Source: Micromonospora ferruginea (GTDB lineage Bacteria; Actinomycetota; Actinomycetes; Mycobacteriales; Micromonosporaceae). Taken from it: a stretch of 64,000 nt of DNA. Numbering within the stretch: position 1 is the first letter of the stretch; each line of letters starts with the position of its first letter. A program made the translations under genes and the position numbers. Below, one piece after another: positions 26,175-36,687 of this stretch. The DNA lies in NCBI RefSeq assembly GCF_013694245.2, contig NZ_CP059322.2, positions 3,355,001 to 3,419,000 of the forward strand, read 5' to 3'. The notes below the pieces were generated by a model. It saw only the letters and a program-made list of their open reading frames with translations, made no database searches and was not told the DNA's origin.

Positions 26175-27125
26175 TCACAGGTACGCGTCGAGCAGCGCGA
26201 GCACCGCGGCCGGGTCCTCGACGTGCGCGTTGTGACCCAGCCCGGGCAGGGTGGCCACCGGCACGCCCAACTCCTTGAGCTGCGCGTCGCTCACCATCGG
26301 GTCCAGCTCGCCACGGGCCAGCAGCACCGGCACGTCGACGGCGGACAGCAGGGCGGGCAGCCTCGGCTCCCCCACCGCGAAGGCGGCCGGATCCATGGCC
26401 AGCCGCCACCGACCGTCCCCCCGCTGGTCTCCCGTCGTGGTCACCTCCGTGGCGAGCGGCCAACGACCGTCACCCCACCGGTCACCGATCGGAGCCGACG
26501 GCCGGCGGCCGTCCCCACGCTGCCCGCCGGTCGTGGCCGGTGGTCGGCGGCCGTCCCCACGCTGGTCGCCGGTCGTGGCCGCTGGCCGACGGCCGTCCCC
26601 ACGCTGGTCGCCACCCCGTCGGCCGGGGCTGTTCTCCCGGCGCAGGCCGGCGTCGACCACCGGATGGTCCGGGGCGAACAGCCCGGCGAGCCCGGAGACC
26701 CGCAGATAGCGACGGGCCGCCTCGTCCCGGGTGGCGAACCAGGTCACCGGCCGGGCGGCCAACTCGTCCGCCTTCGCCAGCTCGGCCGCCGACCAGGCCA
26801 CCTTGATGCCGAGCCCGACCACGGCGTCGACGGGTAGGTGCCGTTGCCGGGCGGCCAGCGCCAGCGCCACCACGCCACCGAGCGAGTGCCCGAGCAGCAC
26901 CAGCCGATCGTTCGGCCCCAACCGGACCGACCCGAGGCCCTCCGCGGCCCGCTGCGCCAGCGCCGCGAAGGAGTATTCGGGCAGCGGCGGTGACCAGCCG
27001 TGCCCGGCCAGGTCGGGAGCGAGCCAGCGGCGTTCCAGCAGCGGCGCCCACGGCAGCCACACCTCGCCGGTGGCGCCCATCCCGTGCAGGAGCACCAGGT
27101 GACGGGTCACCGTCGTATCGCCCAT
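26175..27125 (-). CDS. Alpha/beta hydrolase with tandem-repeat insertion
   Basis: 316 residues. The fold is standard: HLVLLHGMGATGEVW (oxyanion region), nucleophile Ser81 in GHSLGG, Asp275 in GELDPMVS and His in GLGHNAHVED. Between residues about 165 and 245, where the cap or lid should follow APDHPVVDAG, lies a hydrophilic run of five imperfect 13-16-residue repeats of the type GDQRGDGRRPxATT. Without it the protein would have about 236 residues, a usual size. The insertion is in frame, so a functional enzyme remains possible. Substrate unknown. The gene converges with the TagF-like gene 4 bases away and appears unrelated to it. Confidence 0.8.
   Translation of the reverse strand: MGDTTVTRHLVLLHGMGATGEVWLPWAPLLERRWLAPDLAGHGWSPPLPEYSFAALAQRAAEGLGSVRLGPNDRLVLLGHSLGGVVALALAARQRHLPVDAVVGLGIKVAWSAAELAKADELAARPVTWFATRDEAARRYLRVSGLAGLFAPDHPVVDAGLRRENSPGRRGGDQRGDGRRPAATTGDQRGDGRRPPATTGGQRGDGRRPSAPIGDRWGDGRWPLATEVTTTGDQRGDGRWRLAMDPAAFAVGEPRLPALLSAVDVPVLLARGELDPMVSDAQLKELGVPVATLPGLGHNAHVEDPAAVLALLDAYL
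26391..26633. repeat. In-frame tandem repeat within the hydrolase gene
   Basis: Five degenerate units of about 39-48 bp sharing the core CGTCCCCACGCTGG on the plus strand (GGGGACGG with ACCAGCG on the coding strand). The three units nearest 26500-26610 are most alike. Unit lengths are mostly multiples of three, which preserves the reading frame. Confidence 0.8.
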
Positions 27126-27187
27126 ACGCCGCAGTCTGCCACCGCACGAACACGCCGCGCGAGACCCGCCCCGCTCCCCCTCCCCGT

Positions 27188-27257
27188 CGATCTTGCACTT
27201 TCGGCCCCTCTGACGCCGGATTCATCCGGTTATGACCGGGCCGAAACTGCAAGATCG
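27188..27257. repeat. 70-bp inverted repeat, copy 1
   Basis: Arms of 20 bp (CGATCTTGCACTTTCGGCCC at 27188-27207; its complement with one mismatch at 27238-27257) around a 30-base centre. A second copy with the same arms is at 36518-36585. It lies in non-coding DNA after the hydrolase promoter side. Resembles a dispersed palindromic (REP/MITE-like) element; no transposase is present. Confidence 0.8.
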
Positions 27258-27410
27258 CCGCTGGTTGTCGGCGGGCTCGTGACGAGCCGCTCGGCGGGAG
27301 GGGATGTGGTGAGTGGGTGCGGGGGCGGTCAGGCGCCCGAGGCGTTTCGGTGGGTCGGTTGGCGGGTGTTGTGGGAGCCTGCGGGGCTTCGATGTGCGCA
27401 TGGCGAAGCG

Positions 27411-27760
27411 GGTGGAACGCGATGGGTGCCCATGGTGTGCCGGTGGCCTTCGGTGGGCGGGTGGGTGGAACACCGTGGCCGTCTGCGAGGGCGTGAGACC
27501 TCCACGGTGTTCCAGTGGTGCTCCGCTGGGCCGGCGGGTGGAACGCCAAGGCTGTCCGTGCGGGCCTGAGACACCCGTGGCGTTCCAGTCGCGCTCCGAT
27601 GGGACGGTGAGTGGAACGTCATGGGTGTCTACGGGAGTTTGAGGCACCCATGGTGCTCCAGTGACGCTCTCGGTGGGGCTGTTGGGTGGAACGTCACGGG
27701 TGTCTGGGCTGGCCGGATAAGGCATGGTGTTCCGGTTGCGCGTCGGGTGGGGCGGGTGGC
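27411..27760. repeat. Tandem array of 73-bp hairpin-forming units
   Basis: Units begin with GGTGGAAC (or AGTGGAAC) at 27411, 27464, 27537, 27610 and 27685, giving spacings of 53, 73, 73 and 75. Each full unit holds a hairpin of about 47 bases followed by a linker like GCTCCGnTGGGnCGG. The stems differ between units but stay paired: GGAACACCGTGG/CCACGGTGTTCC in the second, GGAACGCCA/TGGCGTTCC in the third, CATGGGTG/CACCCATG in the fourth. The first and last units are degenerate. A 73-base period breaks any reading frame, so this is not coding. Flanks at 27290-27410 and 27761-27860 are GGTGGG-rich and may be worn copies. Confidence 0.75.
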
Positions 27761-27872
27761 GGGTGGCACTGCGGTGGGATCTGACTGGGTGTGTCGGGTG
27801 GGTGGGGTGTCCGGTTCGGGGTGGTGGGTGGCACTCTGGCGGCGGAATCGGGGCGGGGTGCGGGGCGTTGTA

Positions 27873-28001
27873 ACCGGGTGAACGACCGAGCCAGGCGACC
27901 GGGTGAACGACCCCGAGCCAAGCGACCGGGTAACGCCCCGAGTCGAGCGACCGGGTGAATGCCCCGAGCCGGGCAACCGGGCGAACGACCCGAGCCAGGT
28001 G
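27873..28001. repeat. Tandem array of five 25-27-bp units
   Basis: Five contiguous copies of ACCGGGTGAACGACCCGAGC-type units start at 27873, 27898, 27925, 27950 and 27976. Copies differ by a few substitutions and 1-2-base indels. There are no spacers, so it is a minisatellite and not a CRISPR array. Confidence 0.85.
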
Positions 28002-28074: not shown

Positions 28075-28270
28075 CGCAGCCTTCGCCCCACGATGGTGAC
28101 GGTCCCCGGGAATGGTGGTGGCCGGCCGGTCGTTACACACACTCCCGGCCCCCGCGACGAGCCCCGCGCTCCGCGCCCACGCCGGAAACCCCCTGACCTT
28201 TTCGAGCGCCTGACGGTGCCCGCACCCCCGTCCCCCGCGAGGGTGTGTTGACCCCCGAATGGAGCCCACC

Positions 28271-28819
28271 ATGAACACGATCCTGCGCAAGAGCATCCTC
28301 GGTATCGCTGGTCTGGCCTTCACCGGTGGCGTGTTCGCCGGCCCGATCGCCGCCCACGCCGACACCCCCGCGCACGCCGCCGCCAAGCCGGTGACGGCCA
28401 CCGTGCAGGGCGAGCAGTCCACCATCACCCTCAACGACGAGCAGACCGCCAACGCCAAGGCGATCATCGCCGCGACGAAGAAGGCCGGCCTGCCCGAGCG
28501 GGCCGCGGTCATCTCGATCGCGACCAGCCTGCAGGAGTCGAAGCTGGAGAACCTCGGCCACCTCGGCGACCGCAACGACCATGACTCGCTGGGCCTGTTC
28601 CAGCAGCGCCCCTCCAGTGGTTGGGGTACGCCGGAGGAGATCACCGACCCCGAGCACTCCACCCTGGCCTTCCTGAAGGGGCTGAAGCAGGTCGACGGCT
28701 GGCAGGACATGCCCCTGACCGACGCCGCGCAGACCGTGCAGGTCTCCGCCTACCCGGACGCCTACGCGCAGTGGGAGAAGCAGGCCACCGACCTCGTCGC
28801 CCAGCACTGGACCAAGTAA
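28271..28819 (+). CDS. Secreted lysozyme-like (transglycosylase-like) protein
   Basis: 182 residues. A Sec signal peptide covers the first 30 residues (MNTILRKSILGIAGLAF then GPIAAHA before DTPAHA). The mature part holds ISIATSLQESKLENLGHLGD, with the Glu of LQES in the place of the catalytic glutamate of lysozyme-like transglycosylases, then LGLFQQRPSSGWGTPEEI and VQVSAYPDAYAQWE. This pattern is common in small actinobacterial wall proteins, often without experimental function. The ATG at 28271 follows GGAG by 6 bases; the ATG at 28259 is too far upstream of it. Likely acts on peptidoglycan outside the membrane; activity is inferred. Confidence 0.75.
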   Translation: MNTILRKSILGIAGLAFTGGVFAGPIAAHADTPAHAAAKPVTATVQGEQSTITLNDEQTANAKAIIAATKKAGLPERAAVISIATSLQESKLENLGHLGDRNDHDSLGLFQQRPSSGWGTPEEITDPEHSTLAFLKGLKQVDGWQDMPLTDAAQTVQVSAYPDAYAQWEKQATDLVAQHWTK

Positions 28820-35169: not shown

Positions 35170-36687
35170 ATGACCCAGTTCCCCCGGTGGGCCGTGCACG
35201 GCGACGGCCGCTCGGTACGCCCCGGCGACGTGGTCCACCCCGGCGAACGGCTCTCCTGGCCGCGCACGGTCGGGGTCGGCGTGCAGCACGTGGTCGCCAT
35301 GTTCGGCGCCACCTTCACCGTCCCGCTCATCACCGGCTTCCCGCCGGCCACCACGCTCTTCTTCTCCGGCCTGGGCACGCTGCTGTTCCTGCTGGTCACC
35401 GGCAACCGGCTGCCGTCGTACCTCGGGTCGTCGTTCGCGTTCATCGCCCCGGTGATCGCCGCCAAGACCGACGGCGGCATCGGCGCGGCGCTCGGCGGGA
35501 TCGTGGTCGCCGGCGTGGCGCTGGCACTGGTCGGCGTGGTGGTGCACGTGGCCGGCGCGCGCTGGATCGACGCCCTGATGCCCCCGGTGGTGACCGGCGC
35601 GATCGTCGCGCTGATCGGGCTCAACCTCGCGCCGGTCGCCTGGGACGGCGGCGGCGCGGGCACCGGCGTCAAGGCCCAGCCGCTGATCGCCGTGGTCACC
35701 CTGCTGGCGATCCTGGTCACCACCGTGGCGTTCCGCGGCTTCCTGGCCCGGCTGTCGATCCTGCTCGGCGTGGTGGTCGGCTGGCTGCTCGCCGCGGTGA
35801 CCGGCCAGCTCGACCAGCAGGCGGTCACCGGGTTGCGGCAGGCGGCCTGGGTCGGGCTGCCGGAGTTCCACACGCCCAGCTTCAGCCTGCGGGCCGTGGT
35901 GCTGGTCATCCCGGTGATCCTGGTGCTGATCGCGGAGAACGCCGGGCACGTCAAGGCGGTGGCCGCGATGACCGGTGAGAACCTCGACCGGCACATGGGC
36001 CGGGCGTTCCTCGGCGACGGCCTCGCCACCGTGCTGGCCGGCTCCGGCGGCGGCTCCGGCACCACCACCTACGCGGAGAACATCGGCGTCATGGCGGCGA
36101 CCCGGGTCTACTCCACGGCCGCGTACTGGGTGGCCGGCGGCGCGGCGATCCTGCTCGGGCTCTGCCCGAAGTTCGGCGCGCTGATCCTCACCGTGCCGGC
36201 CGGCGTGCTCGGCGGCGCCACCACCGCGCTGTACGGCCTGATCGCCGTGCTGGGCGCCCGGATCTGGATCGAGAACCGGGTCGACTTCCACGACCCGGTC
36301 AACCTGTTCACCGCCGCGGTCGCGGTCATCGTCGGCGCCGCCAACTACACGCTGACCGCCGGCGACCTGTCCTTCAACGGCATCGCCCTGGGCACCGCCG
36401 CCGCGCTGGCGATCCACCACGGCATGCGCCTGACAGCCCACCTACGCGGCACCACCCCCGCCCCCGAGCTCTCCCCGACCCCGACCTCTGACCCCACCCA
36501 CCCCACCCCGCCGCGTGGATCTTGCACTTGCGGCCCGGGTTTTGCCCGGCTTAGCCCGAAATATCCGGGCCGAAACTGCAAGATCGACGCGGGGCGGGGC
36601 GGGGCGGGGCGGGGGCGGGGCGGGGTGGGGTGGGGTGGGGTCAGTCGCGGTCGATGTGGTGGCCTACGACGGTGGGGCCGAGCATGA
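35170..36687 (+). CDS. NCS2 uracil/xanthine permease with repeat-encoded C-terminus
   Basis: 505 residues. Residues 30-430 are a UraA/NCS2 transporter: TVGVGVQHVVAMFGATFTVP (helix 1), SSFAFIAPVI, VVLVIPVILVLIAENAGHVK, GDGLATVLAGSGGGSGTTTY with the conserved QNxG-like region as AENIGVMA, and a normal set of about 14 helices. It imports uracil or another nucleobase with protons. No stop codon occurs where the family ends (about residue 440): the frame runs through the 70-bp inverted repeat and a G-run, adding RGSCTCGPGFARLSPKYPGR and a Gly/Arg-rich tail, and ends 47 bases inside the convergent parC. The ATG has GTGAGG before it. Confidence 0.85.
   Translation: MTQFPRWAVHGDGRSVRPGDVVHPGERLSWPRTVGVGVQHVVAMFGATFTVPLITGFPPATTLFFSGLGTLLFLLVTGNRLPSYLGSSFAFIAPVIAAKTDGGIGAALGGIVVAGVALALVGVVVHVAGARWIDALMPPVVTGAIVALIGLNLAPVAWDGGGAGTGVKAQPLIAVVTLLAILVTTVAFRGFLARLSILLGVVVGWLLAAVTGQLDQQAVTGLRQAAWVGLPEFHTPSFSLRAVVLVIPVILVLIAENAGHVKAVAAMTGENLDRHMGRAFLGDGLATVLAGSGGGSGTTTYAENIGVMAATRVYSTAAYWVAGGAAILLGLCPKFGALILTVPAGVLGGATTALYGLIAVLGARIWIENRVDFHDPVNLFTAAVAVIVGAANYTLTAGDLSFNGIALGTAAALAIHHGMRLTAHLRGTTPAPELSPTPTSDPTHPTPPRGSCTCGPGFARLSPKYPGRNCKIDAGRGGAGRGRGGVGWGGVSRGRCGGLRRWGRA
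36518..36585. repeat. 70-bp inverted repeat, copy 2
   Basis: Arms GATCTTGCACTTGCGGCCCGG (36518-36538; 21 bp split here by position) and its complement with two mismatches (36565-36585). The outer 18 bases match copy 1 at 27188-27257 closely; the 26-base centres differ. It lies inside the extended reading frame of the permease and behind the end of parC. Confidence 0.8.
36590..36640 (+). repeat. (GGGGC)n/(GGGGT)n microsatellite
   Basis: About ten successive runs of four or five G separated by single C or T fill this stretch and end directly at the parC stop codon. It can form G-quadruplexes on the plus strand and is a slippage-prone pentanucleotide tract. Confidence 0.9.

Follow-up and report, generated by a model that had tools for sequence, protein, structure and literature searches.

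The described systems closest to the locus reported here are the REP elements and BIMEs of the GTAG and CGTC superfamilies, dispersed intergenic palindromes that are often clustered and have alternating arms (PMC3733652, PMC2817692). In the portions of these two papers drawn on here, REPs follow genes and are placed where neighbouring ORFs converge or run in tandem, with some copies inside genes, and complementary changes are seen between their families; the stems of the GTAG family measure 6-13 bp, and the CGTC REPs seem to be without a cognate RAYT (PMC3733652). Both papers cover Proteobacteria and several other phyla; 'actinobacter' is absent from their main texts, and the main text of PMC3733652 likewise holds no word beginning with 'actinobacter', 'micromonospora', 'salinispora' or 'streptomyces'. 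Another related system is that of hairpin clusters acting as intrinsic terminators, for which, in the part of the paper used, poly A/U trails are described as unnecessary (PMC8355165).

A 64,000-nucleotide stretch of Micromonospora ferruginea DNA (NZ_CP059322.2, positions 3,355,001 to 3,419,000; hereafter the window) contains a hairpin array which, judged from its sequence, appears to be a member of this already known REP-like kind of dispersed palindrome; what would be new is a tag-less Micromonosporaceae family with a promoter-linked subset. Like REPs and BIMEs, the Micromonospora palindrome is dispersed, mainly intergenic and found in convergent or tandem settings in preference to divergent ones, and its stems covary between genera (24 hand-picked hairpins), but not inside the arrays of the M. 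ferruginea genome. It differs from REPs in its longer arms (18-23 bp), its 13-nt loop and its promoter-linked subset at a fixed distance. With the clusters of PMC8355165, as far as the consulted part of that paper goes, it shares adjacent hairpins after genes; here, in contrast, the hairpins form one sequence-related family, with further members in front of promoters and between divergent genes. A literature search on palindromic, inverted and tandem repeats of Micromonospora and Micromonosporaceae, with subscription journals mostly outside its scope, gave nothing on this family among the matches listed. Our preferred reading, which we hold tentatively and at somewhat less than an even chance, is that a promoter-linked copy of this palindrome family expanded in tandem to give the array, whose hairpins would act when transcribed.

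The array lies in a 1.1-kb intergenic stretch that separates a leftward alpha/beta-hydrolase gene (26175-27125) from a rightward secreted-protein gene (28271-28819). An initial annotation of the sequence had described a 73-bp tandem hairpin array here, and this array is real. TRF reported a 73-bp period with 3.4 copies (score 204) at 27454-27704, direct and inverted repeats were located where the annotation had placed them, and 27400-27760 folded better than 100 of 100 shuffles on the + strand (z -8.0) and again better than the shuffles on the - strand (z -6.2). The array extends over about 27413-27734 and consists of three complete hairpins and one degenerate unit at each end. A complete hairpin is 49 nt long, with 18-bp arms and a 13-nt loop; the linkers measure 24-26 nt and the spacing is 73-75 bp, the 73-bp period being the sum of a 49-nt hairpin and a 24-nt linker. 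The features of the locus are as follows.

26175..27125, - strand: divergent neighbour, alpha/beta hydrolase (ORF list and gene finder)
~27413..27449, + strand: unit at the array start, degenerate and loop-deleted (match of 19 bits to covariance model R1, L080:914-950; direct repeat D5)
27466..27514, + strand: hairpin unit 1, 16/18 Watson-Crick pairs (arm scan, R1, repeats)
27515..27538, + strand: 24-nt linker between units 1 and 2 (arm scan)
27539..27587, + strand: hairpin unit 2, 16/18 Watson-Crick pairs (arm scan, R1, repeats)
27588..27611, + strand: 24-nt linker between units 2 and 3 (arm scan)
27612..27660, + strand: hairpin unit 3, 14/18 Watson-Crick pairs (arm scan, R1, repeats)
27661..27686, + strand: 26-nt linker between units 3 and 4 (arm scan)
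27687..27734, + strand: hairpin unit 4, gene-proximal and degenerate, 9/18 Watson-Crick pairs (R1, arm scan)
27844..27869, + strand: distal SigR/SigH-type promoter motif, GGAAT-N18-GTT, separated from unit 4 by 109 bp
28109..28134, + strand: proximal SigR/SigH-type promoter motif, GGAAT-N18-GTT (motif scan)
28271..28819, + strand: secreted 182-aa muramidase-like protein (PDB 8b2h, E 8.9e-15; 8b2e, E 1.2e-12)

Pairing is also possible across the linkers: arm 27497-27514 can alternatively form pairs with 27539-27556, the left arm of unit 2 (13/18), and the right arm of unit 2 matches the left arm of unit 3 across the linker 27588-27611 at 16/18 positions. The motif GGAAT-N17..19-GTT has no third occurrence in the window, 0.55 being expected in base-shuffled sequence.

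ORFs cross the array, but no 73-bp protein repeat is visible in them by eye, in agreement with the initial annotation, and an in-frame protein repeat was rejected. A known RNA family was rejected as well, the Rfam search having returned a single match (E 0.92), which fell under its gathering score and outside the array. The statement that no known element was recognisable was therefore a fair one, but the REP-like dispersed palindrome is a known kind. Transcription of the 73-bp units as an array of small RNAs would agree with the strong folds, yet we consider it highly improbable, given that no credible Rfam match exists, that the array stands upstream of the promoter motifs, that its copy number ranges from 0 to 9 between gene copies and that a promoter of its own was not recognised.

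The window holds several further repeats. A palindrome of about 76 nt, GATCTTGCA...TGCAAGATC, lies at 27185-27260 in the same intergenic stretch as the array; its left-end motif stands upstream of seven of the eight M. ferruginea copies of the muramidase-like gene, and the palindrome itself, which has 10 occurrences in 212 kb of loci from this genome, probably represents a further dispersed palindrome of Micromonospora. Between the two promoter motifs, at 27873-27997, there is a 26-bp tandem repeat of 4.8 copies, which is also found at the gene copy of L086 and is absent by eye from the other six. A 42-bp tandem repeat (a multiple of three) occupies 26473-26612 within the alpha/beta-hydrolase gene, and a simple G-rich tract of ten GCGGG repeats occupies 36589-36640.

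Copies of the palindrome are scattered over the M. ferruginea genome (6.70 Mb, one contig). A DNA search with the array gave at least 28 matches (40 of 122 candidates scored), and R1, a covariance model built from 20 hairpins, gave at least 70 matches at E 0.01 on both strands (150 of 5736 candidates scored), which grouped into about 20 clusters. These copy numbers are lower bounds because only part of the candidates was scored, as holds for several of the genome searches. At E 1e-3, 35 of 101 sampled Micromonospora genomes matched; in the family, 13 of 150 genomes matched at 1e-5, and these represented 4 of the 44 sampled genera. The covariance-model search of Micromonospora that the initial annotation had proposed thus finds copies elsewhere, and its structural reading does not fail for want of them.

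Gene contexts, obtained with a simple codon-usage gene finder, placed 19 of the 20 M. ferruginea clusters between genes and one within a gene. The 15 clusters away from the muramidase-like gene family, each with at most two loop hairpins, stood between convergent genes (7), between tandem genes (7) or in a gene (1), with none in a divergent region; the five at the gene family were in divergent (2) or tandem (3) settings. In the other genera none of 16 matches lay inside a predicted gene (that of L372 overlaps a weakly predicted one at its end), and where both flanks could be seen (n = 14), 7 were convergent, 6 tandem and 1 divergent. As background, the intergenic bases of the M. ferruginea loci are 15% convergent and 34% divergent.

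The same gene neighbours often recur beside copies of different species (L039/L093, L047/L104 and L062/L099 are examples), so inheritance probably accounts for most copies; in some of these pairs, though not in every one, the elements themselves can be aligned. At the place of L089, on the gltX side, none of 29 relatives had a model match. At L104, where the element lies inside a coding gene, the arm scan found 10 of 30 orthologous intervals filled and 20 empty, and all 30 intervals (L104:4037-4141 and orthologs L246-L275) are equal in length modulo 3; L104 is a palindrome taken into a protein. The L104 locus carries a 133-bp form with the ends GTGACACCC...GGGTGTCTGC, whose limits against the empty sites are blurred and in which a target-site duplication was not recognised by eye. 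Empty sites also exist for L089 and L093, in intergenic parts too diverged for a target duplication to be read. In L099:3821-4843 a short gene, which we take to be DUF397-like, and a palindrome pair were duplicated together in tandem.

The clade-restricted presence, the many copies in the same gene neighbourhood across species, the empty sites in relatives (29/29 at L089, 20/30 at L104) and the degenerate arms in the M. ferruginea genome would all fit a selfish or decaying REP/MITE-like repeat, spread by a transposase since lost and having no present function. On this account, which we consider unlikely, the linkage to one gene family would go back to a single old insertion that was passed on and multiplied together with the gene. 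A search for RAYT (Y1_Tnp, PF01797) found none in four Micromonospora genomes (G000, G073, G026, G021), which is also what loss of the transposase predicts, nor in G189 and G214 (g31); Y1_Tnp was present in G194 (1) and G248 (4), and no hairpin was found by motif in the four loci fetched. RAYT as the mobiliser was rejected, none having been found in Micromonospora. The REP tag beside the stem was seen as GTRG in 1 of 70 feet and as CGTC in 0 of 70. The palindrome was not filed under the tagged REPs because both the tag and the RAYT-type transposase were looked for, with these results. A Micromonosporaceae palindrome family with cross-genus stem covariation, and with neither the customary tag nor a transposase assigned to it, would be of use in separating 'mobile' from 'useful' repeats.

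The initial annotation had further taken compensatory changes in the stems of the array as a sign of selection on structure. Its three examples are correct to the letter, and the clearest double change within the window is one A-T to G-C exchange in unit 1; over the hairpins of the M. ferruginea arrays, however, neither pairing nor covariation rises above shuffles. For 20 hairpins of this genome, 18 of them from arrays at the muramidase-like gene family, 85.3% of the cells were paired versus 85.4% in shuffles, and the covariation score was 0.134 versus 0.143. When the five arrays at the gene family were taken alone (23 hairpins), the mean number of Watson-Crick pairs was 13.00 versus 13.50 in shuffles. 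Covariation inside the locus was rejected for the arrays by these shuffle tests. Pooling all 46 loop hairpins of the genome gave a slight excess (13.85 versus 13.47, 57/5000), carried by the dispersed ones. The dispersed set (23 hairpins, among them two pairs attributable to chance, L095:92 and L099:2093, and one locus present in duplicate) pairs above shuffles (14.70 versus 13.58); pairing across the linker is likewise above shuffles (15.32 versus 14.21), which suggests that all arms within one locus are alike. A slight excess was also found for 31 hairpins of other species (15.84 versus 15.49, 35/5000), and none for eight linker pairs of other species. The orthologous pair L046/L051 showed five stem changes with zero compensated, and the pair L056/L063 one compensated stem change.

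Comparison between genera gave a different result. The 16 matches in three other genera have an identical format (18-bp arms, 13-nt loop) and an outer end that mostly reads TGGAAC; their inner arms differ from those of Micromonospora yet are again complementary. In alignment A4, comprising 24 hairpins from 4 genera, 95.1% of the cells were paired versus 81.1% in shuffles, a percentage that is inflated because the hairpins were hand-picked and because paired arms raised the score in the model search behind the foreign-genus matches. Double-sided changes occurred in 13 of 18 pairs, and the covariation score was 0.419 versus 0.162, reached by 0 of 500 shuffles; with the partner slid it was at most 0.115. 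Replacement of the inner arms on both sides is not easily produced by the pairing bias of the model. Arms are also kept better than loops: identity was 0.94-0.95 in the arms, 0.42 in the loop and 0.33-0.36 in the flanks for G189 and G214 (9 copies), 0.96-0.98 in the arms and 0.68 in the loop for G194 (6 copies), and 0.80-0.84 in the arms, 0.44 in the loop and 0.42-0.43 in the neighbouring 24 nt for 14 dispersed M. ferruginea copies. The loop length is 13 in 65 of 72 cases, and the linker length is 24 in 36 of 51 scored gaps. Both the cross-genus covariation and the decay of the loops toward background while the arms were kept (G189, G214 and the dispersed M. ferruginea copies) speak against a repeat that merely decays. 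Selection on structure, as the initial annotation proposed it, thus appears supported for the family by cross-genus covariation and by arms kept better than loops, and not for the locus in the window, where covariation does not exceed shuffles. Stems no more conserved than linkers, an outcome that the annotation had set against its own reading, do not describe the dispersed copies, and come close to describing 12 promoter-linked hairpins, where loop and stem are conserved to the same degree (81.6% and 83.7%).

The promoter-linked hairpins stand before a gene family. The protein encoded downstream of the array matches muramidases over 127 (8b2h) and 114 (8b2e) query residues, corresponding to the catalytic-type region alone, and has no Pfam family at 1e-3. 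Both 8b2h and 8b2e are, we assume, GH184 enzymes; the likeness to GH184 muramidases consists in this sequence match, and the differences are that the protein of the window is bacterial, 182 aa long, aligned in the catalytic-type region alone and known from sequence. Of these entries, 8b2h is mentioned in PMC10394673. The M. ferruginea genome has eight close copies of the gene, this one included, of which seven show 96-100% identity and one shows 81%. Arrays of about 3 to 9 units each, the five longest of the genome, lie upstream of five of them, and the other three have no hairpin. Other Micromonospora genomes likewise carry several copies of the muramidase-like gene, and the M. ferruginea copies have paired SigR-type motifs.

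This association was surveyed in named Micromonospora genomes, using the best 80 of 437 loci. All 32 model matches at E 0.01, distributed over 13 loci, lay about 300-550 bp before the gene, with none elsewhere in 494 kb. A looser arm scan of these 80 loci found pairs in 17 upstream regions and none in 63, with 28 pairs in 50 kb of upstream DNA versus 6 in 442 kb outside. Among the same best 80 loci, the hairpin was present in 5 of 5 copies of AMSO31t, 4 of 5 of MA102 and 0 of 6 of RP3T. Because 63 of the 80 regions and three of the eight M. ferruginea copies lack it, muramidase-like genes do not need the hairpin, and a universal need for it at their promoters was rejected. Other long, clade-specific palindromes occur upstream of muramidase-like genes (L184, L189, L191, L194, L202, L214 and L215; L167, L174 and L187), and such lineage-specific palindromes in the same regions would again suit a selfish repeat.

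Of the named loci, 78 had enough upstream DNA for a motif scan, and GGAAT-N17..19-GTT was found at least once in 78/78 and at least twice in 77/78. GGAATN18GTT is given as the SigR consensus of Streptomyces coelicolor in the consulted part of PMC2375139. Among 16 named loci with a hairpin, 12 have a gap of 60-62 bp between the end of the gene-proximal hairpin and the distal GGAAT; in the other four it is 135, 136, 167 and 191 bp. The pattern GTTCCAC, 45-75 nt, GGAAT-N17..19-GTT gave 77 matches in 30 of 160 genomes of the genus, and the reversed pattern gave 1. We analysed 55 of the 77, after 22 without a conserved block before GGAAT had been dropped by eye; a gene start was found in 49, and the other six stretches end at a contig end. 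The gap from the right arm to GGAAT was 60-63 bp in 51 of the 55 (11 genomes), with 45-75 allowed. An in-register hairpin was visible in 45, one that is a base out of register in 4 and none in 6. The pattern itself demands the right-arm end, and because the 55 matches were chosen for it they cannot give the share of gene copies with a hairpin. The named-genome and pattern-match sets overlap (G009, G033, G097 and G115 are the genomes of AMSO31t, chaiyaphumensis, fulviviridis and MA102) and were not pooled. Seven genomes (G009, G022, G033, G097, G105, G115 and G154) have 4-9 such sites each and also show model matches away from them, and one site in G097 has hairpins at 0, -73 and -146. The M. 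ferruginea genome (G000) departs from this geometry: the gap between hairpin and GGAAT is 109 bp in the window instead of 60-63 bp, and the pattern has no match in the genome. A gap of 60-63 bp retained in 51 of 55 pattern matches is a further point against a selfish repeat without function. The same link to a SigR-type motif before muramidase-like genes makes a role of the hairpin directly testable at the bench.

The rigid spacing of the element, with a 13-nt loop, a 24-nt linker, a 73-bp period and a gap of 60-63 bp, raises the possibility of a DNA operator, in which the arms would be half-sites of a DNA-binding protein, either a regulator or a chromosome-organising one; we regard this as possible but somewhat unlikely. 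The promoter-linked copy would then be an upstream control site of the muramidase-like promoter, which the array would multiply, and a transcript would not be required. The conservation of the promoter-linked hairpins fits such a site. In the 45 of 55 sites with an in-register hairpin (43 distinct), information is 0.57 bits per base upstream, rises sharply at the 5' end of the hairpin and stays at 1.5-1.65 through hairpin and spacer, with means of 1.65, 1.51 and 1.54 bits for arm, loop and arm, so that loop and stem are about equally conserved. Their pairing exceeds global shuffles (0/4000) and, within genomes, shows a weak excess (197/4000 shuffles reach it for Watson-Crick pairs, 36/4000 with G-U included). 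An arm sequence that is nearly constant in a genome of another genus while the loops vary also agrees with an operator. The distances between arm centres, 31, 42 and 73 bp, come close to 3, 4 and 7 turns of the helix; with this spacing the arm sites would all lie on the same face of it, but the remark on helical phase was made after the fact. Usual half-sites are shorter than the 18-23 bp near-perfect arms seen here, and placement after gene ends is unusual for regulators. The inner arms, moreover, differ between genera on both sides, and an operator protein would therefore have to co-evolve with them.

The reading that we prefer, a promoter-linked REP-like palindrome whose hairpins act in transcripts, would start from a family with 18-bp arms, mostly beginning with TGGAAC, and a 13-nt loop. 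One hairpin may have become fixed before the distal promoter motif in an ancestor and then have been copied along with the gene copies. The array would have grown by duplication of units, away from the promoter, since the G097 site has hairpins at successive 73-bp steps and since L093 of M. ferruginea exceeds its G073 counterpart by about one unit. Less surely, each transcribed hairpin may stop or trim RNA at gene ends, and the hairpins before muramidase-like genes may shield the stress-type promoter from stray upstream transcripts. Such a role in transcripts is commonly proposed for REP elements; here it would belong to a distinct family with no identified mobiliser.

Mismatches of the stems were compared by strand. 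Near promoters, read on the strand toward the gene, 55 G-U versus 20 A-C mismatches were counted in 45 hairpins. In tandem settings, on the sense strand, the counts were 15 versus 4 in Micromonospora and 0 versus 2 in other genera. Convergent copies were near even in Micromonospora (16 versus 13) and stood at 5 versus 0 in other genera; convergent copies of other species, oriented by their flanking genes, gave 5 versus 9. When orientation was taken from loop and linker, the ratios were 46/22 for the M. ferruginea arrays, 34/10 for other species and 19/19 for the dispersed M. ferruginea copies. The G-U excess fits hairpins that act in RNA, directional where transcription has one direction, but it is not independent evidence because of shared ancestry and strand mutation bias. 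Among the hairpins read by eye, none was followed by a T run. No predicted gene is oriented to run into the array in the window or at L097, the gene upstream being transcribed divergently in both cases. A fixed loop length, a 73-bp period and a fixed promoter gap, moreover, are not needed by an RNA hairpin, which counts against the transcribed-hairpin reading.

The copy number of the 73-bp tandem unit differs between gene copies. On this basis one might imagine, though we rate it as unlikely, that a structure-selected Micromonosporaceae cis-element, unrelated to the tagged REPs, came to serve the stress-type promoter of a multicopy secreted muramidase-like family as an upstream control site of fixed geometry, and that its copy number could set the expression of each gene copy like a dial. 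Palindromes of the family also adjoin a different secreted-protein gene: in L090:3992-5204 such a gene has three GGAAT...GTT motifs by eye and a palindrome upstream in the opposite orientation, and a like gene adjoins a copy in L044.
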